DNA of 64,000 bases from Acidobacteriaceae bacterium (GTDB lineage Bacteria; Acidobacteriota; Terriglobia; Terriglobales; Acidobacteriaceae), in contig PLCS01000008.1 in the NCBI GenBank assembly GCA_003134855.1, positions 579,421-643,420 on the forward strand, read 5' to 3'. Below, in pieces: positions 28,701 to 64,000 of the stretch (the stretch's first letter is position 1; each line of letters begins with the position of its first letter). The translations under genes and the position numbers were made by a program. The notes below the pieces were generated by a model. That model was not told the DNA's origin. It did not search any database and saw nothing but the letters and a program-made list of their open reading frames with translations.

Positions 28701-28866
28701 GGCTTGCGCCGGGCAAGCCGGCCGAAACCGAGATCGTCGGGAAATCCACTTGTGGCAATGGGGAAACAGGAAGAACATTGAAGGCGATGGCCCCCACAAG
28801 CGTGATGCCCGCCGTCAACAGGGTGGTGGCCACGGGCCGGCGGATGAAGGGGGCGGAGATATTCAT
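25765..28866 (-). CDS. RND multidrug efflux pump, MdtC-like
   Basis: A 1033-residue HAE1-type RND transporter, complete with twelve expected membrane helices. N-terminal [14 protein letters not shown], the helix-4 region with the DD pair ([18 protein letters not shown]), and C-terminal [28 protein letters not shown] are all present. The start ATG overlaps the stop of the preceding pump gene by 4 nt. Two different RND subunits in tandem behind one adaptor is the MdtABC pattern, where the two pumps form a mixed trimer. Confidence 0.94.
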
Positions 28867-31800
28867 GCTTCCTCCGCCGGGATCGGTTCATCGCCGCCTT
28901 CGACACTCTTCGGCGCGCGAGAGAAGCGATGGCCGAGATTATCGAAAAAGATGTAAATGACAGGTGTTGTGTAGAGCGTGAGCACCTGGCTCAGCAGCAG
29001 TCCGCCAACCATGGCAATGCCTAGAGGACGCCGCAGCTCCGAGCCCATCCCTTGACCGAGAGCCAGCGGAAGGCCCGCCAGCAGCGCCGCCATGGTCGTC
29101 ATCATGATAGGGCGGAAGCGCAGCAGGCAAGCGTCGTAAATCGCGTCGGTCGCGTTTTTACCGTGCTCGCGTTCTCCTTCCATCGCGAAGTCGACCATCA
29201 TGATTCCGTTCTTCTTGACAATGCCGATCAGCAGGATGATGCCGATGATCGCGACGACGCTGAGGTCCTGCTTGAAAAGGATGAGGGCCAGCAATGCGCC
29301 CACGCCCGCGGACGGCAGCGTGGAGAGAATGGTGATGGGGTGAATGAAGCTCTCGTACAATACTCCGAGCACAATATAAACCGCTGCCAGCGCGGCCAGA
29401 ATCAGCAAGCCCTCATTGGAGAGCGAACCCTGAAATGAGGCCGCGGTCCCCTGAAATCCATACTGGACGCTGACCGGCATGTTCAGATCCTTTTGCGCCT
29501 TTTCGATGGCCGTGATTGCGCCTCCCAGCGCGGCGTTGGGAGCAAGATTGAACGACACGGTCACGGCCGGGAACTGTCCCTGGTGATTGATCGAGAGCTG
29601 CTCCGCGACTTTCTCAATGTGAGTGAACGCACTGAGCGGTACTGCATTGGAACGCAAGGTCGTCGCGGCTGCATTCGCAGTTGAAGAAGTGCTGCTGGCG
29701 CCCACTCCGGACGTAATGGCATTCGTGGGCGCGCTGAGGGCTGCCGAGGAAGGAGTGTAGGCCACAGCGGTCGTGGTTGCATTCGAACCGGCGGACGAGG
29801 ATCCTGAGGAAGCATAAGACGACGAAGCACCCGGACCGCTGCCGCCCGCGGAAGTGTTGGTCTGGATATACAGGTCCTGGAGTTTGCCGGGGCTTTGCTG
29901 ATCGCTTGGAGCAGTTTCAAGAATCACGTGATACTGATTCAACTGCGTGTACATGGTGCTGATCTGCCGCTGTCCATAAGCGTCATATAGAGTGCTGTCG
30001 ATGGTGGAGGGCGCAATGCCAAGCCGCGATGCGCTGACGCGATCGATGACCAGCGATACCGCCAGCCCCCCGGTTTGCTGGTCCGTCGCTACATCGGCAA
30101 GCTGAGGCAATTGCTTCATCTTGTCAACAAGCCGGCCAGTCCACAAGTTCAACTCGTTCGCGTCTGGGTCTTCCAGCGTGTATTGATACTGGGTGCGGCT
30201 CACCCGGTCGTCCACGGTAATATCCTGCACCGGCTCCATGAAGAGCTCGATGCCCTCGACCGGCTTGAGGCTCGTTTGCAGCCTGCGAATCACGTCGGAG
30301 GCGCTCAGTTTGCGCACGCCGATCGGCTTCAGGTTGATGGACATTCGTCCGCTGTTCAAAGTGGTATTGGTCCCATCCGCGCCGATAAAGGAAGATAAAC
30401 TCTCGACCGCTGGGTCTTGAAGGATGATGGCTGCCAGTTGCTGCTGCTTCTGCTCCATGGCCGCAAAGGAAATCGTTGCCGGCGCCTGCGAGATGCCCTG
30501 AATCTCGCCTGTATCCTGTACAGGAAAGAATCCCTTGGGGATCACGATGTAGAGCACAATCGTCAGCACCAGCGTGGCTGCGGCCACCAGCAGCGTGATG
30601 GTCTGATACCCCAGCACAAACTTCAGCGTGCGCCCGTAAAACGCGATCATGTTCTCGAATACACGTTCGGATGCTTTGTAGAAACGGCCCTGCTCTTCCT
30701 TGGGAGTGTGGCGCAAAATGCGTGCGCACATCATGGGCGTCAGCGTGAGCGAGACAACGGCCGAGAGGATGATGGTGACGGCCAGGGTGACCGCGAATTC
30801 GCGAAAGAGGCGGCCCACAACATCGCCCATGAAGAGAAGCGGAATCAGCACCGCGATCAGCGAGACGGTGAGAGAAATAATCGTAAAGCCGATCTGTTCC
30901 GCGCCCTTCATCGCCGCCTGCATGGGCGAGTCCCCGGCCTCGAGATAGCGCGTAATGTTCTCGATCATCACGATCGCATCATCGACCACAAACCCCGTGG
31001 AGATGGTGAGCGCCATCAGGGAAAGATTGTCCAGACTATAACCCAGCGCATACATGGCGCCGAAGGTTCCCACCAATGAAACCGGCACGGCAATACTGGG
31101 AATGATGGTGGCGTAAACGTTGCGCAGAAACAGAAAGATCACCATCACCACCAGCGCAACGGTCAGCATTAACTCGAACTCGACGTCGGAGACGGAGGCG
31201 TTGATAGCTGTGGTGAGATCGGTGAGCGGAGTAACCTTGATGGATGCCGGCAGGTTTACCTCTAGCTGGGGCAGGATCGCCTTGATGGCCTTCACCACGC
31301 TGATGGTATTGGCGCCGGGCTGCCTTTGAATGTTGAGGATGACCGCCGGCGTCTCGTTCATCCACGCTGCCTGCTTGTTGTTCTCGATGCCGTCCACCAC
31401 CTGCGCAACACTGCTGAGCATGATGGGCGCGCCGTTGCGGTAGGCAATTACGACCTTGCGATAATCGTCGCTGGTCACCAGCTGATCGTTGGCGTTGATC
31501 TGATAATCCTGATGAGGTCCGTCGAAGTTTCCCTTGGCGGCATTGACGCTGGTCTGCGTGAGCGCCGTGCGCAGGTCTTCAAGGTTGAGTCCATAGGACG
31601 ACAGCGCAGTCGGATTGGCCTGAATGCGCACCGCCGGCTTTTGCCCGCCGCTGATACTCACCAGGCCCACCCCGCTCAACTGCGAGAGCTTGGGAGCAAG
31701 CCGCGTATCCACCATATCCTCAACCTGCGAGAGCGGAATCGAGTCGGACGTGATGGCCAGCGTCAGCACGGGAGCATCCGCCGGATTGGTCTTGCTATAA

Positions 31801-32183
31801 ACAGGAGGCGAGGGAAGGCTCGACGGAAGAAAGCTCTGCGCGGCGTTAATCGAGGACTGAACCTCTTCTTCGGCGATGTCGATGTTGAGGCTGAGAGCGA
31901 ACTGCAACACAATCACAGACGATCCGCCGGAGCTGGTCGATGTCATCTGGCTCAGCCCCTGGAGTTGGCCGAACTGACGTTCTAGGGGAGCAGTGACCGT
32001 TGTGGCCATCACGTCCGGGCTGGCGCCTGGATAGAAAGTCAGCACCTGGATGGTCGGGTAATCAACCTCAGGCAAGGCGGAAACCGGCAGTTGCGTATAT
32101 GCAACAATACCCACCAATAGGATTGCCGCCATCAGCAGCGACGTGGCTACAGGGCGCTGGATGAAAGGCCCGGATGGACTCAC
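28863..32183 (-). CDS. RND multidrug efflux pump, MdtB-like, with a Ser/Ala-rich insert
   Basis: A 1106-residue RND transporter. N-terminal [32 protein letters not shown] in helix 4, and the C-terminal GSELRRPLG stretch are intact. Its start is a GTG (GTGA overlap with the adaptor stop). It is about 70 residues longer than its partner because of a low-complexity Ser/Ala/Thr/Gly insertion (about residues 775-840) between the LYIQTN strand and the conserved VPLSAF motif. In AcrB-type pumps that region is periplasmic and close to the channel-docking part. With the downstream pump it should form an MdtBC-type heterotrimer. Confidence 0.93.
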
Positions 32184-33424
32184 GGAGTCTTGCCCTCAGC
32201 GGGATTGGCCGGAGGCGTCTGCTTCGGCACGACGACTTTACTCCCGGCCTGCAACTTGTCGAAGCTGCTGGTCGCCATGACCTCGCCGGGATTGATTCCC
32301 GTGACCGAAGTCATGCCGCCTTCGGCAACGCCCGTCTTGATATTGCGCACGCTCGTTACACCATTCGTGATCACATAGAGGAACGCAACTTGTCCGTTGT
32401 GCTGGACGGCGGCAGTGGGAACCAGCGTGACCCCGTCGAGCGTATTGACCAGCAACCTTGTGTTCACAAACTGGTTCGGGAAGAGTGCGCCGTTCTTGTT
32501 ATCGAATTGGGCACGCAATTTGACCGTTCCCGTCGTGGTGTCGATTTGGTTGTTGATGGTGAACAACTTGCCCGACGCTATCTTGGCGGTCTGCGCGCGA
32601 TCCCACGCATCGACGGGCAGCGTATGCAGCTTCCGCATCCGCGCCTGCACTTGCCCAAGGCTGTCTTCCGCCATCGTGAAGATCACAGTAGTGGGCTGCA
32701 TCTGCGTGATCACCACCAGCACAGTGGATGCGTTTGCCTGCACCACGTTCCCTGGGTCCACCAGGCGAAGGCCTGTCTGGCCGGCAATCGGCGCGGTGAT
32801 GTGGCAGTAGCTGAGTTGGACCTGATCGTAATTCACGGTGCCTTGATCGTTCTTCACCATGCCCTGGTCCTGCAATACAAGCTTTTCCTGGTCGTCCAGC
32901 ACCTGCTTGGAGATGCCGTTGCCGGCCCACGCGGTGCGATAACGGTCCAGGTCCATCTGCGCTTGCGCCAGAACGTTGTTGTCGCGCTCCAGCGTGCCCT
33001 CAGCCTGAAGCAACTGCGCCTGATAAGGCCGCGGATCGATGTCGATCAGCGCATCCCCTTTTTGTACGAACTGCCCCTCGCTGTAATGCACAGCGGTCAA
33101 AACTCCACTGGCTTGCGCCAAAATGGAGGCGGTATAGACCGGAGTGACCGTGCCGATTGCATCGAGGTAGATGCCAATGCTGCCCTTCGCGGCCGTGGAG
33201 ACAGTGGCCGTGACGGATGGTTTCACGGCCGCCAGCGCACTCTTGGCAGCCGCTGCCTTGGCTTCGTTCTTGTGGATGACCACGAAGACGATCACGGCCA
33301 GAAGCAGCAGAAGCAGCATGCTCGTCCACAGGATCCAGCGCTTCCGATACCACGGAACCGGCGGGGAGAGCTGATGAGCCGCGCCAATGTGCTGATCACC
33401 CCATTCGTCTTCGATCTCAGACAT
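32180..33424 (-). CDS. RND efflux periplasmic adaptor, MdtA-like
   Basis: A 414-residue membrane fusion protein. A cytoplasmic N-terminus, one membrane anchor ([22 protein letters not shown], about 32-52), a lipoyl-like half motif ([22 protein letters not shown]), an alpha-hairpin ([20 protein letters not shown]), and C-terminal beta-barrel domains are visible. It lacks a lipobox and is anchored by the helix. The ATG at 33424 has GGAG upstream. It is the first gene of the efflux operon and overlaps the next start by 4 nt (GTGA). Confidence 0.93.
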
Positions 33425-33594
33425 GCAGGACTCCGCGCCTACGCACCGTTGGCAAAGTGCTGCTCGCAGAATCGCTGAATTCCGGGGCGATTGTATGCTC
33501 TGTATTGCTCAGTTTTGGAGCGCATACAGGATGGAGGTTCGGAGCCTGCTGTGGGTGTTTCAGTGGGGGAATGTATGGAATCTTCAATGGAATC

Positions 33595-33669
33595 TGGAGC
33601 GGGAGACCGGGATCGAACCGGCGACATTCAGCTTGGGAAGCTGACGTTCTGCCACTGAACTACTCCCGC
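33595..33669 (-). tRNA. tRNA-Gly (anticodon CCC)
   Basis: A complete 75-nt tRNA. Acceptor GCGGGAG/CTCCCGC, D stem GTTC/GAAC, anticodon stem TCAGC/GCTGA with loop TTCCCAA (anticodon CCC), T stem GCCGG/CCGGT, discriminator T and encoded CCA. No good promoter is visible just upstream of its 5' end (33670 onward), in contrast to the partial copy at 62793-62829. Confidence 0.96.
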
Positions 33670-33777
33670 AACCTATTTGCTTACATCAACTTGCATCATT
33701 GCAGAGAACTTGCTGACACCATAAAACACCATGGTTGAAGGAATGGCTACATCTTCAACACCGGGGAGGGTGGCGAG

Positions 33778-34147
33778 ATGAAAGTCAATCGTGAGCGGTA
33801 TCAGCATGGCAGCGTCCGTAAGGTTCCCCGTTCCCAAGGGTTTGCTTGAGAATTCAGATTCTATATTACGGCCCCGGACGGCAAACGTAAACTCAAGGTC
33901 CAGACATTCGACTCAGCGAAGTACCCAACGGAGCGGGGGAGCGGGATGTCCGCAAGGCCGTAGAAGGCCAGCTCTCCGCGCTCAACGCCGGGACGCTCGG
34001 GGGCAAGGTTGCCGCTACGCTCGGGACCATCATTGACCGCTACAAGACGGATGAATTCCCGCCCTTCGCTACTCCACAAAGACCACCAATAAGAGCCTCA
34101 TTGGCCTCCACATCCGCCCGAAGTGGCAGGACGTGACCGTCACCGCA
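33778..34147 (+). pseudogene. Tyrosine-recombinase (phage-type integrase) remnant
   Basis: The start ATG with GGGAGGGTGG upstream encodes MKVNRERYQHGSVRKV and then hits TGA after 23 codons. In other frames the sequence continues with FRFYITAPDGKRKLK, VRKAVEGQLSALNAGTL, then LGTIIDRYKTDEFP and STKTTNKSLIGLHIRPKW. Joined, these resemble the N-terminal arm-binding and core-binding domains of XerC/lambda-type integrases (short SGS-like basic start, KAVEGQ helix, TIIDRY). At least three frameshifts are needed, and the catalytic domain is gone. It sits 109 nt from the 5' end of tRNA-Gly. Confidence 0.65.
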
Positions 34148-34150
34148 TTC

Positions 34151-34240
34151 GTGCGCAGCGCCCCGACCGGCGCATCCAACCGGCGCGCTTGGTTTCTCTA
34201 TGAATTCCTCACCGGGAGGGTAGCGGAGGACCGTGCTGAC
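34151..34240 (+). pseudogene. Possible Fic-family protein fragment
   Basis: The plus strand encodes VRSAPTGASNRRAWFLYEFLTGR, which resembles the N-terminal region of a class of Fic proteins (RRAWFLYEWLTGR). It is joined directly to the integrase remnant and is cut off by the LuxR gene on the other strand. It is too short to be sure. Confidence 0.3.
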
Positions 34241-36479: not shown

Positions 36480-37106
36480 ATGAACCTTCCGAGTAAGGAT
36501 AGCGAAGCTTTGTCTGAAATGTGCGAGCAAGCCATAGCCGCTGGAAATCCCGGATTGTTGTGCGATGCAGAGGATTCTACGCCACAGTGGTTCGCGGCAT
36601 CCACGACACCGCGCCATGAAAAGCATGTTTCAAAACTGCTCGTAGAGCGCCAGATAGAGGCGTTCTTGCCGCTTTACCGATCGGCCAAACAATGGAAGAA
36701 GAGCCGACCAGTCGTTCTTGAACTGCCCCTGTTCCCCACGTATGTCTTTGTTCGCATCGCACGGCAGGCGCGTGGCGCAGTCTTAAGCTTGCCGGGAGTG
36801 CATTCGATCGTAGGATCGTCGAAAGATCCATGGCCCATTCCCGACTGTGAGATCGAGGCTTTGCGTCGCGGCCTGCAGATGCACAAGGTTGAGCCGCACC
36901 CCTACCTGAAAGTGGGCGAACGGGTGCGGATCAAGACTGGACTGATGGCAGGAGTGCAAGGCATATTAGTCCGCAAGAAAAGTGAATTCCGCGTGGTTCT
37001 TACCCTTGACGCGATCATGCGGAGTGTGGCAGTGGAAGTGGATGCCGATGACCTGGAACTGATTGACAGCCAAGCCGAGAGTTCTTCAAATCCATGGTCA
37101 ACTTGA
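36480..37106 (+). CDS. UpxY/RfaH-like NusG paralogue
   Basis: A 208-residue specialised NusG. The NGN domain starts at about residue 36 (WFAASTTPRHEKHVSKLL) and includes PLFPTYVFVRI and LSLPGVHSIVG. A KOW motif follows (VGERVRIKTGLMAGVQGIL). The N-terminal 35 residues are an unconserved extension. Paralogues of this type sit at the head of long capsule or exopolysaccharide operons and promote read-through transcription. Position just before the Wzz/Wza genes supports that role here. Confidence 0.87.
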   Translation: MNLPSKDSEALSEMCEQAIAAGNPGLLCDAEDSTPQWFAASTTPRHEKHVSKLLVERQIEAFLPLYRSAKQWKKSRPVVLELPLFPTYVFVRIARQARGAVLSLPGVHSIVGSSKDPWPIPDCEIEALRRGLQMHKVEPHPYLKVGERVRIKTGLMAGVQGILVRKKSEFRVVLTLDAIMRSVAVEVDADDLELIDSQAESSSNPWST

Positions 37107-55488: not shown

Positions 55489-55524
55489 AACTGACCCAAC
55501 GCACGTACGGTGGGTCAGTTTTCA
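55489..55524 (+). terminator. Intrinsic terminator at the end of the polysaccharide genes
   Basis: AACTGACCCA (55489-55498) and TGGGTCAGTT (55511-55520) form a perfect 10-bp stem with a 12-nt loop, followed by TTCATT on the plus strand. It lies 75 nt after the wecG-like gene and ends inside the last bases of the convergent beta-helix gene. Confidence 0.7.
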
Positions 55525-58500
55525 TTGGGCCTGCGTCAGGTTGATGCTTCCGCTGTGAAGGATATTAGTTACATTATCAAAGGTTTCATCGCTGTAAGTC
55601 GCTGATCCAGCCGAGCCAGAGGTGACATAGCGGCCGTAGTCATATGCGAATGCCAGGTTCTGCCAGGTGTTTCCCCGGAGCGTGAAATTCCTGGTGACGC
55701 TGGCTGATGCTTCTAATAGGAATCCAGTGCTGTGCGCCTGAGTGGTATACCCCAGCACTTCGTTGTTGTAGACCTTATTGTTCGCGACCTCCGATGTTCC
55801 GCTGTTGTCGGTTCTGAAAGTGATGGCAGCCGAGTTTGAATTGTCATTGGAGAACTGAATCACGTTGCCAAAGACGCGGTTGCGGTCCTCGGTAGCTTCA
55901 ACATTGGGCGCCGGCACTGCGCTGCCTTCAATGTTGATTGCGTACTGAGCGAAGCCATAGAATCGATTCTCTGCGACGGTGTTATCATTCGAATCATTGT
56001 CGAACCAGGCATCCTGAGTTACGTTCTGGCATCCGTAGCATTTGTTGGCTTCAAACAACATGCCGTGAGCGAACGGGAGTTCCCATCCTGCAAGCAGCGC
56101 ATTCCCGTTGGCATAACAACTGTTGTCGCGCACGGTAGCTCCCTGCTCCACGACCATGGAATAGCAAAACTCGATGGGAGTGTCCGCCCAGCATTGATTG
56201 CCTTCGATTACGTCGCCGTTGCCCCAGGTGAGGCCGCCGGTAATGGTGTTTTTATTGTAGCCGCCGCCGGTGATACAATTGCCGTTGGGTCCGGCTGAGT
56301 GGATGAGATTCCAGCCAACATGCCCGCCAATCGGGGCAACTCCAGCTACCGCCGGCCAATATTGGATCCCTGTGGTCTCGGTTCCGGCGCCCGCAACAGT
56401 AATGGAGTTATGGTCGATCTGGAAGCCTGTCATGACACCACTCAACAGGAGCGGTGTTGAGCCTGCCGTCACAGTATTCTCCACGAAAACAAAATGAGTC
56501 GTGTTCCACGCATGCACACAGAATGGGATGGAGCCACAAGTGATCGTATTACCCGTCAAACTGACACCGGAGCTGCTGGTGCTGGAAGATGCAATAACAA
56601 TCAGAGCGCTGATAAACCCGTTCTGATTCAGGTTGCAGCCACTCATCTTTGCGCCGTTTGCCGTGATGCGCAACAGGGCAACATTCGCACCAAGAAGAAG
56701 CTGGGCCCCCTGCTCGCAGCGCAAGGTTACATTGCTGTTGGCGAGTGTGATGCTTGCGGTCACGGTTTCTCTGTAGTTTGCGGGCAAGATGATGGTTGCG
56801 TTTGGTCCGCTCGCGACGAGTTGAGCGGCAAGCGTGCCTGCTGGCTGTGTGCCGCCCGGTAACTGAACCGTGGGGGCCAGTGAAGCCTGCCCACCGAGGT
56901 TCGCAAGCGCCCCGGCAGCAGTGGCCGCTCCGGTCCCACCGTTGGCCGCTGAAATAGGCATCGAAAGAGCGAGAGTCACATTTCCGATTGAGCCGCCGCC
57001 GGTCAGGCCGGCTCCCGCTACCACTCCGCTGATTGTTCCGCTGCCTCCGGTACTGCCGCCACTGGTCAGGGATGTGCCCGGAAACATTTGCCCCTGAGCA
57101 AAGGTAATCTGTCCATTCGGGGAGATCGAGAGTCCGGTCGACGCGGGTGCTGTCGTTCCTGCCCCGAAGAGCAGCTTAAGATTAGCCGTGGGGCTGACCG
57201 AGTCGTTCCCGGCGTTGACAGCCTGCCAAACAAAGTTCTGTGTCACGGCACTGCTGTTGACGCTTGAATAGCTGCTGGCTCCCAGTTGCAAAGGCGGGGA
57301 ATCGGCTCCCCGGTTGGCGGTAGCTGTGGAAGCTGGCAGGCTTACCGCGCCGCGCAAGGTGCTGGCGCCGTTCACGTCTAGCGGTGTGGCCGGCATGGTT
57401 GTGGCGATGCCGATGCTGCTTCCCGACAGCGGACCAGCCAATGTTTGTAGAGTTGTCTTCGTAGAGGAGATGCCGTCCAGGTTCGCCAGCGCCGCGGCAG
57501 GAGTGGCAGCGCCGGTTCCGCCGTTGGCCGTCGAGACAGGCCCGGAGAGAGCAAGCGTGACGTTTCCGCTGGAGCCGCCGCCGGTGAGGCCTGGGCCGGT
57601 TGTTATGCCGATGATGGTGCCGGCACCGGGAAAGGTTTGGCCCTGCGCAAAGGTGACTTGCCCGCTCGGAGCGATCGCGAGGCCGGTGGGTGCGGACGTT
57701 GCAGTTCCTGATCCGAAGAGCAGCGCCAAGTTGGCAGAGGGGCTGGTGGTGTTGTTGGCCGTGCTTTGCGCCTGCCAGACAAAATTCTGTGGCACGGCTG
57801 CATTGCTGGCGCTGGAATACGTGCTGGCGCCCAGTTGCAAGCCCGGCGAATTGACGCCGGCAGTCAGTGTGGCTGCCGCAGCAAGAAGGCTCACTGCTCC
57901 GCGCAAAGTGCTGGCTCCGTTCACATCCAATATGGTAGCAGGCGTGTTGGTGCCGATGCCGACATTTGTGCCGGATTCGGCGATCATCGAGTTGCCGAGA
58001 GTCGTCAACCCGATCCACAAAGGCAGAAAGCCGGAGGTTCCTGCTCCGGTGAATGCCGTCCCACCGCTGGACGACGTGGTAGTTCCGAGTATGGGCAACG
58101 GAGTTCTGACGATGGGCAGCGGATAAATCCCGTCGGACGACGAGGTTGCTTTGCTGGAGATAGCCTGGACCTGGCTGGCCAGGATGGACTGCAGGTCTTC
58201 TCGGGTCACGTAGTCGTTCGCCGCGCGCCCATCCAGGGTTTCGGCATCCATGGACTTGAAGGCATAAGGGACAGCCGCCAGCAGGCTCCGCGCGGGCGGC
58301 GTCGCATTGGCTGTTTCGTCAACTGCATCCCCGACGGAAGCAGCGTTCAGCTGCGCCTGGATCGGCCGAGCCTCAATCCACCGCGCCTCGCCAGCCCGAA
58401 AGAGCGTCTGCGAAAGCCCTTCCGCGCTCGTTGCCCCCAGCAGCACGGTATAGCGCCCATCGGTTCCTACCTTCACGGGCTGGGTCTCGCTCCATAGCGC

Positions 58501-58812
58501 AAGCCCCCCAGCCGGTTCCTGATAGAGCGCAAAGGACATCTCAACTGTCCTCCCAGTCGCCTCAGGTGCACTCCCCATCCAGCGGACGATGTTCACCGTC
58601 GAAGCCGAGCCGGCGACTGCGGAAGCATCCGTGTCAGCGCTCTGAGCGCCAGCGGGCAGAGCCATGGCAACAGCCAATATGGAGAACGACGCGCCGAGAG
58701 CCCAGAAGAATGTCGATTTCCATGCTGTGCGGTTGAACCGTAGCCATTTCTGGATCGGCTCGAAAGCTCCATTAAGGTTAATAAATGAGCGGATACCGAT
58801 AAATGTAGCCAT
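55522..58812 (-). CDS. Large exported protein: tail-fibre-like repeats plus parallel beta-helix
   Basis: A 1096-residue secreted protein. A long basic N-region and signal segment (about 35-57, ending PAGAQS) is followed by an Ig-like or collar domain (60-200, ending AVPYAFKSMDAETLDG, as in tail-fibre heads). Two imperfect repeats of about 170 residues follow (each: T-PAT-LDVNGASTLRGAVSL, QNFVWQA, SPNGQITFAQGQ). Between them are TANGGTGAATPAAALANL motifs typical of phage tail fibres. The last 420 residues form a right-handed beta-helix (NSNVTLRCEQGA, SNDNTVAENRFYGF). GGGGGAGG precedes the ATG by 6 nt. It may bind or cleave the surface polysaccharide; no catalytic site is certain. Confidence 0.82.
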   Translation of the reverse strand: MATFIGIRSFINLNGAFEPIQKWLRFNRTAWKSTFFWALGASFSILAVAMALPAGAQSADTDASAVAGSASTVNIVRWMGSAPEATGRTVEMSFALYQEPAGGLALWSETQPVKVGTDGRYTVLLGATSAEGLSQTLFRAGEARWIEARPIQAQLNAASVGDAVDETANATPPARSLLAAVPYAFKSMDAETLDGRAANDYVTREDLQSILASQVQAISSKATSSSDGIYPLPIVRTPLPILGTTTSSSGGTAFTGAGTSGFLPLWIGLTTLGNSMIAESGTNVGIGTNTPATILDVNGASTLRGAVSLLAAAATLTAGVNSPGLQLGASTYSSASNAAVPQNFVWQAQSTANNTTSPSANLALLFGSGTATSAPTGLAIAPSGQVTFAQGQTFPGAGTIIGITTGPGLTGGGSSGNVTLALSGPVSTANGGTGAATPAAALANLDGISSTKTTLQTLAGPLSGSSIGIATTMPATPLDVNGASTLRGAVSLPASTATANRGADSPPLQLGASSYSSVNSSAVTQNFVWQAVNAGNDSVSPTANLKLLFGAGTTAPASTGLSISPNGQITFAQGQMFPGTSLTSGGSTGGSGTISGVVAGAGLTGGGSIGNVTLALSMPISAANGGTGAATAAGALANLGGQASLAPTVQLPGGTQPAGTLAAQLVASGPNATIILPANYRETVTASITLANSNVTLRCEQGAQLLLGANVALLRITANGAKMSGCNLNQNGFISALIVIASSSTSSSGVSLTGNTITCGSIPFCVHAWNTTHFVFVENTVTAGSTPLLLSGVMTGFQIDHNSITVAGAGTETTGIQYWPAVAGVAPIGGHVGWNLIHSAGPNGNCITGGGYNKNTITGGLTWGNGDVIEGNQCWADTPIEFCYSMVVEQGATVRDNSCYANGNALLAGWELPFAHGMLFEANKCYGCQNVTQDAWFDNDSNDNTVAENRFYGFAQYAINIEGSAVPAPNVEATEDRNRVFGNVIQFSNDNSNSAAITFRTDNSGTSEVANNKVYNNEVLGYTTQAHSTGFLLEASASVTRNFTLRGNTWQNLAFAYDYGRYVTSGSAGSATYSDETFDNVTNILHSGSINLTQAQ

Positions 58813-59460: not shown

Positions 59461-60358
59461 AGAACCCGTCCGATAAATACCTGAGGACGGATTTCGCTTG
59501 TATTTTCAGGTTGATAGCGGTATAAAGGAGGTGGCGCTGGCGATGCTGCGAAACTACATATGCGGGCACGGGGCGAAGTGACGGATGCCGAATGGGTGAT
59601 TGTGGAGCCGTGGTTGCAGTTTCCGCGGCGGGCTGACGGGCGGGGTCGTCCGCCGGCAGAGACGCGGGCGGTGTTGAACGGGGTGCTGTGGATTCTGCGC
59701 ACCGGAGCACAGTGGCGGGAGTTGCCGGAGAAGTATCCGCCGTACCAGACCGTGCACGGGCGCTACCAACAGTGGGTTCGTTCCGGCCAGTTGGGGAAGG
59801 CGCTGCGCGCGTTGGCCGAGAAGTTGCGCGAGGAAGGCAAGCTGGAGCTGGAAGAAGACTTCATCGACGGCAGCTTCGCGGCGGCCAAAAAGGGGGCCTC
59901 GCGGTGGGAAAGACCAAGCGGGGCAAAGGGACAAAAATTATGGCCATCGCCGCGGGAAACAGCGTTCCTGTGGCTGTCACGATAGACTCGGCCTCGCCGC
60001 ACGAGTCCCAGCTCGTCGATGAAACGCTCTCGGCCAGTTTCCTCGACGAACTGGCGGCGCGGCTGATCGGCGACAAGGCGTACGATTCCGACCCGCTGGA
60101 CCGGCATTTGGAAGATGAGTATGGCATTGAGATGATCGCACCCAACCGGAAGAACCGCAGCCGGACGCAGGACGGCAGAAGATTGCGCCGTTACAAACGC
60201 CGCTGGGTCGTGGAGCGGCTATTCGCCTGGCTGCAATGGTTCCGCAGATTGGTTAGGCGCTACGAATTTCATGCCGAAAACTTCCTCGGCATGGTCCGCC
60301 TCGGCTGCATGAAGATCATGCTGAGGTTCCTATGATGCGTATTTATCGGACCAGTTCT
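59461..60358. mobile_element. IS5-family (IS427-like) insertion sequence, apparently intact
   Basis: Terminal inverted repeats AGAACCCGTCCGATAAATAC (59461-59480) and its near complement ending AGTTCT (60339-60358) match at 18 of 20 positions. They enclose about 0.9 kb with one two-frame transposase. A TA on each side could be the short target duplication common in this group. It is inserted about 50 nt upstream of the wecC start, so wecC may now depend on read-through from the element or on a promoter in its right end. Confidence 0.85.
59560..60335 (+). CDS. IS5-family transposase made by -1 frameshifting
   Basis: The first frame (59560-59985) carries VTDAEWVIVEPWL, WRELPEKYPPYQTVHGRYQQW and the first catalytic Asp in FIDGSF. 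The second frame (read up to 60335) carries AVGKTKRGKGTKIM, GDKAYDSD with the second Asp, and WVVERLFAWL with the Glu. At 59887-59896 the run CAAAAAGGGGG is a slippery site: a -1 slip joins AAAKK to GGLAVGKTK, restoring the normal family sequence. The two-frame design is usual in IS427-group elements, so this is not a mutation. Confidence 0.82.
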
Positions 60359-62345: not shown

Positions 62346-62451
62346 TCTGCCGAGGTGTGTCTCAATTCGTAGTCTTTGCTGAGACGGCGTGACCAGTTCA
62401 GCCATGCAAAGGTGCGTTCGACGATCCAGCGCTTGGGCAGAACCCGGAACA
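62345..62451 (-). pseudogene. IS5-family transposase C-terminal fragment, minus strand
   Basis: Read on the minus strand, this interval encodes [21 protein letters not shown] and [14 protein letters not shown], with the catalytic Glu of IVERTFAWL. It is exactly the part missing after the plus-strand fragment, but inverted. Just beyond it, the plus strand again reads [13 protein letters not shown], a typical IS5 transposase C-terminus. Confidence 0.6.
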
Positions 62452-62792
62452 GGTATTGATCTACATCGCCTTCGCGCCTATGCTCCTCAGGCGATTGCAG
62501 TAGTTTTTAGACAGATTCTTAGGTGTCATCCGCTGACGTTCACGATATGTCCTCGGAATTCCGAGAAAAATCAGCGGGTGAACGTCACATTTACGCGCAG
62601 CAGCATATCATGGTGTTGATTATGGTGTGGGAAATGGCCGTGGTGCTGATAATGGTGTGACGCTAAAACCAGCATGAATAAAGGGGAAACACCACTTTGA
62701 GGACCATTGTAAAAATTGTTCTTGACTCTCTAGGACTCGTTTAGGCTTCTTGGTGTTTCTGTAAGTAGTTAACAATACTATACTTATCTATT

Positions 62793-62829
62793 TTGGGAGG
62801 CTGACGTTCTGCCGCTGATCTACTCCCGC
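62793..62829 (-). tRNA. Partial tRNA-Gly(CCC): 5' half only
   Basis: The minus strand has GCGGGAGTAGATCAGCGGCA, then GAACGTCAGCCTCCCAA, that is, acceptor 5' strand, D arm and anticodon arm up to the loop (anticodon CCC). It matches the intact tRNA-Gly at 33633-33669 in 34 of 37 positions. One difference breaks a D-stem pair. The 3' half is absent, so it is not a functional tRNA. Confidence 0.8.
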
Positions 62830-62839
62830 TTCAGACAGA

Positions 62840-62845
62840 ATTATA
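62840..62845 (-). promoter_or_regulatory. -10 box of the truncated tRNA-Gly
   Basis: The minus strand reads TATAAT, ending 10 nt before the 5' end of the partial tRNA, ideal spacing for a tRNA promoter. A weak -35 (TTCGTC) is 17 nt further upstream. It suggests this copy once was the 5' part of an expressed tRNA gene. Confidence 0.5.
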
Positions 62846-62996
62846 CCTCGCGGAATTCACAGGACGAAATCTGGCTTGGTTATGCGGCGGATCACGACCG
62901 CCTCTTGAGGACATGGAGGCGTTGTAGGATCGCCGTGACCCGCTATCCGATCAGTAGCCTGCGGATAGTGCGCTTCGGCAGCGGCCACTCTTTAGA

Positions 62997-64000
62997 TCAG
63001 CCCGCATTCCCCAGCACCGACTCGTAATAGCGCACGTAATGCGGCACAACCAGCGACGAGCAGAAGCGCTTCTGCGCCGTCTTGCGCCCCGCCAGGCGCA
63101 TCGCTTCCAGGCGGTCGCGGTCCTTCAGCAGGCTGACCACTCCGGCGGCCATGGCCTCCACATCTCCCACTGGGTAGAGCAGTCCCGTCACGCCGTCGTC
63201 GATCAACTCGGGCACGCCGCCCACCCGCGTGGCAATCGACGGAACCTTGCAGGCCATCGCCTCCAGAGCCGCCAGGCCAAAGGACTCCAGCTCGCTGGGC
63301 ATCACCATCAGATCGGCCAGCGGCAACAGCTCGTTGACCCGCTCCTGCTTGCCGAGAAAGTGAACGCGACACTGGATTCCCAGGTCGTGCGCCAGCCACT
63401 CGGCGGCCGAGCGCTCCGGCCCGTCGCCCACCAGCACCAGTTGCGCGGGTAGCTCGCGCTGCACCTGGGCGAAGACCTTCACCACATCCACCACCCGCTT
63501 CACCGGCCTGAAGTTGGACAGATGCATCAGGATCGCCTCTTCCGGTTTGGCCAGGCGCAGCCGCGCCTTGGCCCGCGCGGCCTCATCCTTGATGGGCACA
63601 TACTCGTTGCAGTTGACGAAGTTGGGAATCACCTCGATGGGCCGCGTGATGCCGAAGTGCTTCAGCGTCTCCTCCTTCAGATAGCTGGAGATGCTGGTCA
63701 CTCCGTCGCTCTCCTGAATGGCGTAGCGAGTGATGGGCAGGTAGCCGCGGTCCATGCCCACCAGCGTGATGTCGGTGCCGTGCAGCGTGGTGACAAAGGG
63801 CAACCGCATCCCGCGCGAGGCCAGCATCTGCCGCGCCAGCAGCGCGCTCACCGAGTGCGGAATGGCATAATGCACGTGCAGCAGATCCAGCGAATACAGC
63901 TCGGCGATCTCGGCCATCCGCGAGGCCAGCGCCAGATCGTAGGGCGGGAACTCGAAGAGCGGGTAACTGGAGACAGGAACCTCGTGATAGAGGATGCCGT
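62997..64000 (-). CDS. bshA: N-acetyl-alpha-D-glucosaminyl L-malate synthase BshA (5' end outside window)
   Basis: A GT4 enzyme for the first step of bacillithiol synthesis, joining GlcNAc from UDP-GlcNAc to L-malate. The part visible before the first ATG (63998-63918) encodes [21 protein letters not shown], the conserved BshA N-terminus, so the gene continues past the window edge and the ATG at 63917 is internal. Further signatures are [41 protein letters not shown] and [18 protein letters not shown] with the E-x7-E pair. Codon usage is GC-rich and core-like, in contrast to the debris upstream. Confidence 0.93.

Follow-up and report, generated by a model that had tools for sequence, protein, structure and literature searches.

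An island at tRNA-Gly(CCC) in an Acidobacteriaceae bacterium appears to have displaced the gene's native promoter

Two copies of one tRNA gene, of which only the incomplete one is preceded by a recognizable -10 box, raise the question of where the native promoter of the gene now lies and from what the intact copy is transcribed. They are found in the 64,000 nucleotides (nt) of Acidobacteriaceae DNA analyzed here (contig PLCS01000008.1 of assembly GCA_003134855.1, hereafter the window), in which an intact tRNA-Gly(CCC) gene and the 5′ half of a second copy enclose a long intervening region. Comparison with relatives makes it highly probable, in our judgment, that this region is an island integrated into the tRNA-Gly(CCC) gene, that it displaced the native promoter and left the rebuilt tRNA on element DNA, and that the same site is used from both sides. 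The displacement is the well-supported part; expression of the rebuilt gene from element sequence is what the arrangement would imply.

Which copy has kept the native promoter

The features on which the argument turns are these.

28863-33594, minus strand: chromosomal flank 3′ of the tRNA, with AcrB-type and HlyD-type genes (Pfam; G071 match)
33595-33669, minus strand: intact tRNA-Gly(CCC) (ARAGORN)
33670-33715, minus strand: element-borne sequence now upstream of the intact tRNA (integrase-proximal arm), with a -10 no better than 4/6 at 6 to 45 nt
62793-62829, minus strand: displaced native 5′ half (tRNA positions 1-37), now with three substitutions
62840-62845, minus strand: native -10 box TATAAT, left behind; the same sequence stands upstream of the uninterrupted tRNA in G009
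62830-64000, unstranded: the chromosome's own sequence upstream of the tRNA, matched over 1171 nt at 94% identity by G009:C287 beside an intact tRNA

On the minus strand, TATAAT (62845 to 62840) is followed after 10 nt by the half copy, which starts GCGGGAGTAG (62829 to 62793) and is identical to positions 1-37 of the intact tRNA at 34 of 37 sites (E=6e-11; changes T11A, T16C and T31C). The initial annotation, made from the letters alone, had pointed to exactly this box, and also to the lack of one before the intact tRNA; both readings hold, 33670-33710 being the upstream region of the intact gene as ARAGORN places it. There are six TATAAT in the window, three on each strand, and by our own arithmetic a minus-strand one would fall by chance into a slot of 5 nt ahead of a given point with a probability of about 2e-4. 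Between 6 and 45 nt upstream of the right copy the best hexamer is TATAAT itself (6/6, equalled in 0 of 100 shuffles), whereas in the same span before the intact tRNA it is AATGAT, 25 nt up (4/6, equalled in 49 of 100). Since a strict two-box promoter scan returned no site at either copy, the -10 position and shuffle controls were used instead. The right copy has only a poor -35 box (TCGTCC, 3/6, spacer 16), and because of this and the empty scan the right copy is said to have the better -10 box, not a complete consensus promoter.

Relatives decide which side is native. A search with the tRNA covered 60 relatives, among which G009, of the same genus, carries an uninterrupted and 100% identical tRNA-Gly joined directly to the window's right-flank sequence: G009:C287 matches 62830-64000 at 94% identity over 1171 nt, TATAAT included, with ggtataattctgtctgaa directly before the gene. 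The left flank, in the part searched (31400-33594), is 95% identical to G071 up to the 3′ end of the tRNA, and G071 also has the right flank (90%, with a short run of N), in which a displaced half comprising positions 1-34 stands behind the same promoter. Both window flanks are thus present in G071, on two contigs and with other DNA between them. Because of the G009 match and the G071 flanks, the interpretation that the right copy is the native 5′ half with its native promoter, and that the sequence from 33670 onward is foreign, is well supported; read from its flanks, the intact tRNA would then consist of a chromosomal 3′ half and an element-supplied 5′ half. Moreover, the intact tRNA and the fragment are both on the minus strand with the fragment on the 5′ side, as in 5′-fragment islands. 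In G009 only the 5′ side is unoccupied; its 3′ flank is interrupted and lies on another contig. At about 836-1100 of G009:C212 (locus L126), a transposase start, which we take to be IS21-like, breaks the counterpart of the window's left flank just 3′ of the expected tRNA site.

The right copy could in principle be a decayed attachment (att) copy inside a second element, with a TATAAT present by chance. Its 3 substitutions in 37 positions would fit such decay, and islands in tandem are frequent at this gene, with element-type sequence upstream of 9 of the 16 displaced halves in the genus. The 1171 nt at 94% identity to the upstream region of an intact tRNA in G009, TATAAT included, bring this explanation close to refutation, and the right copy is treated below as the native half.

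The arrangement recurs elsewhere. A contig search with the intact integrase of G018 (373 amino acids) gave six loci, including one in Granulicella sp. L46 at 81% (locus L205). There an intact tRNA-Gly(CCC) has the integrase upstream of it in divergent orientation, and the 110 nt viewed before the tRNA contain no TATAAT; 10 kb off on the same contig is a displaced 5′ half, preceded by ccagcggtataatcagtcttctga, with TATAAT 10 nt upstream. This reads as an independent repeat of the window's arrangement. The earlier suggestion that the original promoter stayed behind at the right junction is thus well supported by G009, where the intact tRNA is joined to the same upstream sequence, and likewise by G071 and Granulicella. 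The left end is shared by Edaphobacter aggregans DSM 19364 (84% over 421 nt), and the far end of the island is common to G021, G018 and G035, at 83-86% to the window's.

The island between the copies

The ends and contents of the region, with one neighboring gene, are as follows.

33716-33732, unstranded: two ACACCAT repeats (ATGGTGT on the minus strand), probable integrase arm sites of the left end
33778-34183, plus strand: tyrosine integrase remnant in three frames, divergent from the tRNA (tblastn with the G018 integrase)
36480-61754, unstranded: exopolysaccharide cluster, the cargo (Pfam)
36480-37106, plus strand: NusG-domain protein near the start of that cluster (Pfam)
59560-59985, unstranded: IS4/5-type transposase within the cargo (Pfam)
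62611-62629 and 62641-62659, plus strand: two direct repeats with ATGGTGT, probable arm sites of the right end
62748-62792, minus strand: far arm of the attachment site, beside the crossover (far-arm profile)
62997-63917, minus strand: group-1 glycosyltransferase in the right flank (Pfam PF00534)

The region between the tRNA copies is 55% guanine plus cytosine, against 61% and 64% in the flanks; about 29 kb long, it is probably an old island that no longer moves. Repeats similar to the pair at 33716-33732 are found at the corresponding position in G018, G035, Granulicella and E. aggregans. The integrase remnant is 89%, 90% and 54% identical by tblastn to residues 1-53, 52-92 and 92-141 of the G018 protein, and the same search did not find the C-terminal catalytic part. 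In G018, as at L205 of Granulicella, the integrase between the tRNA copies is intact, and the G018 protein matches PF00589 and PF14659. Because the window's integrase is a broken remnant, mobility of the island by its own integrase has probably been lost.

By Pfam, the cargo comprises the NusG-domain protein, Wzz/kinase, Poly_export, MatE, Wzy_C, glycosyltransferase, WecG, epimerases and a UDP-sugar dehydrogenase; we presume that the NusG-domain protein may be a specialized RfaH-like antiterminator. Inside the cluster an open reading frame (ORF) of 1096 amino acids (55522-58812, minus strand) has no Pfam match at 0.001 and may be a chance ORF. By eye, 62400-62590 has the appearance of an insertion sequence (IS), and nested inverted repeats (GTGAACGTCA / TGACGTTCAC) adjoin the right end of the island.

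Upstream regions across the genus

How general such a change of promoter may be was examined in 80 genomes of the genus, counting that of the window, with two patterns allowing up to 3 mismatches. These matched 53 full copies in 52 genomes, the 5′ part alone 19 times (two at a contig start and one, G034:C66, a diverged full copy) and the 3′ part alone 18 times (one at a contig start). Fetched and classified, with matches below 88% identity dropped and the 3′-only matches G069:C80 and G099:C357 outside the set, were 54 full copies, 16 displaced 5′ halves and 16 displaced 3′ halves. Loci were divided by the element arm motif GTAAGTTATTGATTnTAAA, a consensus drawn by eye. The -10 hexamer count covers the full loci other than L145, L146 and L149, which have less than 45 nt upstream. 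Between 6 and 45 nt upstream, TATAAT occurs in 0 of 24 full tRNAs with the motif and 8 of 27 without it (the window's locus among the 27), and hexamers of at least 5/6 in 3 of 24 as against 15 of 27; of the displaced 5′ halves, 5 of 16 have TATAAT, 0 of 9 with the motif and 5 of 7 without, all these counts being subject to the limit that the motif occupies the -10 position, so that motif and TATAAT are mutually exclusive and the classes are not independent of the outcome. A sigma-70-like two-box score, taken at full loci with at least 120 nt upstream (which drops two element-type loci by our own count), averaged 8.29 against 6.22 in shuffles at 26 other loci, 17 of which beat 90% of shuffles; at 25 element-type loci (22, plus the window's locus, moved by hand, and 2 isolates) there was no such excess, with 7.52 against 7.36 and 4 of 25 beating 90%. 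Because of the hexamer counts and the two-box scores, it can be said that the islands tend to swap a recognizable promoter for one not recognizable as sigma-70-like. The arm motif was itself considered as the new promoter and rejected: it occurs in mirror register on the 3′ side of the gene in some genomes, and its scores are not above those of shuffles.

Several of these observations weigh against our interpretation. In the arm-motif test the window's own upstream region falls short (11 of 18, equalled in 12% of shuffles), and it owes its place in the element group to an 84-85% match with the G018 end. No TATAAT stands in the 100 nt viewed upstream of the displaced half in E. aggregans, and within the 6-45 nt span 11 of the 16 displaced 5′ halves have none; since 9 of these 11 carry the element motif, an earlier island was probably already present at those nine. 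The missing sigma-70-like excess at element-type loci counts on the same side. In G071 the intact tRNA does have a TATAAT, within 22 nt that resemble the native promoter with two differences, and no integrase was found near that tRNA in the stretch read, where the upstream DNA holds kinase-like and response-regulator-like genes, as judged from their translations. At positions 2604-2700 of G071:C200 (L124), the 22-nt copy is followed by divergence, and together with the 34-nt half it repeats about 56 nt of the displaced copy on C205 in direct orientation. Given upstream DNA without an integrase in the stretch read, G071 is not claimed as proof of an island-borne copy of the native promoter.

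If the intact tRNA is transcribed, geometry forces it to be driven from element sequence, so that this part of the initial annotation would follow; a matching promoter signal is what element-type upstream regions fail to supply. The rebuilt gene might instead be scarcely transcribed and dispensable, given that tRNA-Gly(UCC) can read GGG, with the loss of the promoter tolerated and left unrepaired. We think this unlikely but worth keeping in view. No promoter excess is seen upstream of element-type copies, 10 of 42 high-quality genomes of the genus lack an adjacent match of both tRNA halves, and the genome has, by our own reading of the sequence, a tRNA-like gene with a UCC anticodon loop (L002). 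Missing copies, however, can be assembly gaps (the sole match in G030 and the 3′ match in G069, at contig start), and the sequence is constrained: 50 of 54 full copies, element-type included, are the same apart from C/T at position 19, and of the remaining four, two have only one compensated pair as a further difference, a third has two such pairs, and G073 has a single change. Because of this near-identity, the tRNA-Gly(CCC) gene would seem to be still in use. Among displaced 5′ halves, 3 of 16 have changes beyond the C/T site, the window's included. In G103, rated 100% complete, a displaced 5′ half (L190, C52) and a displaced 3′ half (L203, C19) occur with no intact copy by the two patterns.

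The course of events that we favor, from comparison, is that a tyrosine-integrase island recombined with the anticodon region of the tRNA-Gly(CCC) gene and pushed the original 5′ half and its promoter, with TATAAT 10 nt upstream, to the far end of the island, about 29 kb away. The rebuilt tRNA would then be transcribed from the short divergent region between tRNA and integrase gene, by a promoter unlike the sigma-70 consensus, and the stranded native promoter may still fire, through the decaying half-tRNA into the end of the island. By its geometry the stranded promoter points into the element, and TATAAT is kept at the displaced half in the window, G021, G071, G069, G002 and Granulicella, which would suit an island that had taken the promoter over to drive genes at its end once integrated, a promoter swap reporting integration. 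This we regard as improbable, the sequence near the end of the window's island looking IS-like in our own reading. Nor did a conserved island gene emerge as a candidate for being driven by the displaced promoter: at seven loci, no common codirectional ORF of at least 70 amino acids lies within 2.6 kb of the far end (1.5 kb in Granulicella) by blastp at 1e-5.

The anticodon loop as attachment site

The displacement of the native promoter depends on the side from which the gene is entered, and the anticodon stem-loop, TCAGC-TTCCCAA-GCTGA, is nearly palindromic. Six of 16 displaced 5′ halves stop at position 37 and 7 of 16 displaced 3′ halves begin at 31, and since the half copies have these boundaries, the overlap may be placed at positions 31-37, the 7-nt anticodon loop. 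Against this, the other displaced 5′ halves end at 33 (6), 34 (3) or 38 (1), and 9 of 16 3′ halves start elsewhere than 31, so that the crossover is not alike in every island here. Both kinds of half can stand at one gene: G098 has, on one contig and one strand and in this order, a displaced 5′ half, the intact tRNA and a displaced 3′ half, and in G062 the tRNA is flanked by a divergent integrase on its 5′ side and a codirectional one on its 3′ side.

On the 3′ side, the integrase of G062 shares 62% identity with the 5′-side integrase of G018, and that of G064, which is in two reading pieces, 59%; the two fall with the 5′-side integrases of G018, Granulicella and G074 in a mixed clade of five (support 97/97). 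Nesting of the 3′-side integrases inside the 5′-side ones, which we had to discard as a point in our favor, is not significant in the approximately unbiased (AU) test (p=0.124); since a tree grouping the three 5′-side integrases is not rejected, a mixed clade is claimed, with no direction.

The arms bear on the same matter. A near-arm profile built from 23 of 33 five-side arms (those in the main register) scored above 8, a cut chosen on sight of the scores, on 7 of 68 3′ sides in exact mirror register, on 4 of 68 one base off and on 0 of 68 at shifts of 2-6, with shifts of 0 to 6 taken in one direction. The far-arm profile, from seven 5′-type arms (leaving out an eighth, of G098, and with that of E. 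aggregans a base out of register), matches 3 of 16 3′-type far arms, those of G062, G064 and G026, each above all 2000 shuffles; for G086, a marginal case, 3 of 2000 shuffles do as well, and the remaining 12 show no match. At the junctions, TTGGGAAGCTGAC is found in 4 of the 6 5′ types ending at 37, with substitutions in the window and G098, and TTCCCAAGCTGAA in all seven 3′ types starting at 31; on their sequence, the two are the same half-site with the anticodon reversed. Some attachment arms thus appear to be mirror images in register around a GGG or CCC overlap, and together the comparisons suggest that one integrase lineage uses the same tRNA gene from both sides. Because the stem-loop is nearly palindromic, such a lineage could choose sides through the overlap, with mirrored arms. 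Whether the flip in polarity is set by the 3-bp anticodon in the overlap (GGG/CCC), which would decide between host and island promoter while arrays formed by repeated rounds strand the native promoter ever further, we hold to be evenly balanced. Apart from the clade studied, and unlike it, a second family of 3′-side islands (L046, L197, L200, L203) has a common far arm, CCATGTTCTTTGTTTTCAATTGA, beside the displaced 3′ half.

Islands with 5′ fragments are known but rare, and the window's island represents an uncommon, reversed version of a frequent type of insertion: Islander gives 159 islands with 5′ fragments against 3760 with 3′ fragments (159 of 3919; PMC4383910). As described there, the 5′-fragment islands share with the window a 5′ tRNA fragment displaced upstream of the rebuilt gene; what the window's case adds is a 5′-unoccupied relative, by which the native promoter can be assigned to the displaced fragment, and the occurrence of both polarities at a single tRNA within one genus. 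The common anticodon-loop islands, with a displaced 3′ half, cross over in the same loop and in this genus belong to the same integrase clade (G062, G064), but they leave the native promoter on the rebuilt tRNA, and the window's type removes it. According to a review, rebuilt bacterial tRNAs are expressed from the original promoter with very few exceptions, and in archaeal pTN3-like elements from the integrase promoter (PMC8371274); the pTN3-like integrases are split (suicidal), whereas in the window's type the integrase starts about 100 nt from the tRNA, divergent, with no recognizable promoter. For 5′-distal recombination, a Thaumarchaeota study cites Zhao and Williams 2002 (PMC6563490). Lysogeny of the tRNA-dependent kind (PMC10865867) likewise has a tyrosine integrase and an attB in a tRNA gene, but in that system no tRNA is rebuilt, a whole one being brought by the phage; at the window's junction ARAGORN gives an intact, rebuilt tRNA-Gly. 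No report of mirrored attachment sites in one integrase clade was found in the literature searched, which left most subscription papers outside, and mirror-image use of one site by one integrase clade looks like the new part.

The practical lesson is one of caution, in that a stranded promoter or half-tRNA of this kind should not be annotated as a functional small RNA. The wider interest is that natural promoter swaps at one tRNA in one genus, with a 5′-unoccupied relative and two named isolates, let one ask how a tRNA stays expressed after promoter loss and what determines integration polarity; what deserves following up is the use of the site from both sides.
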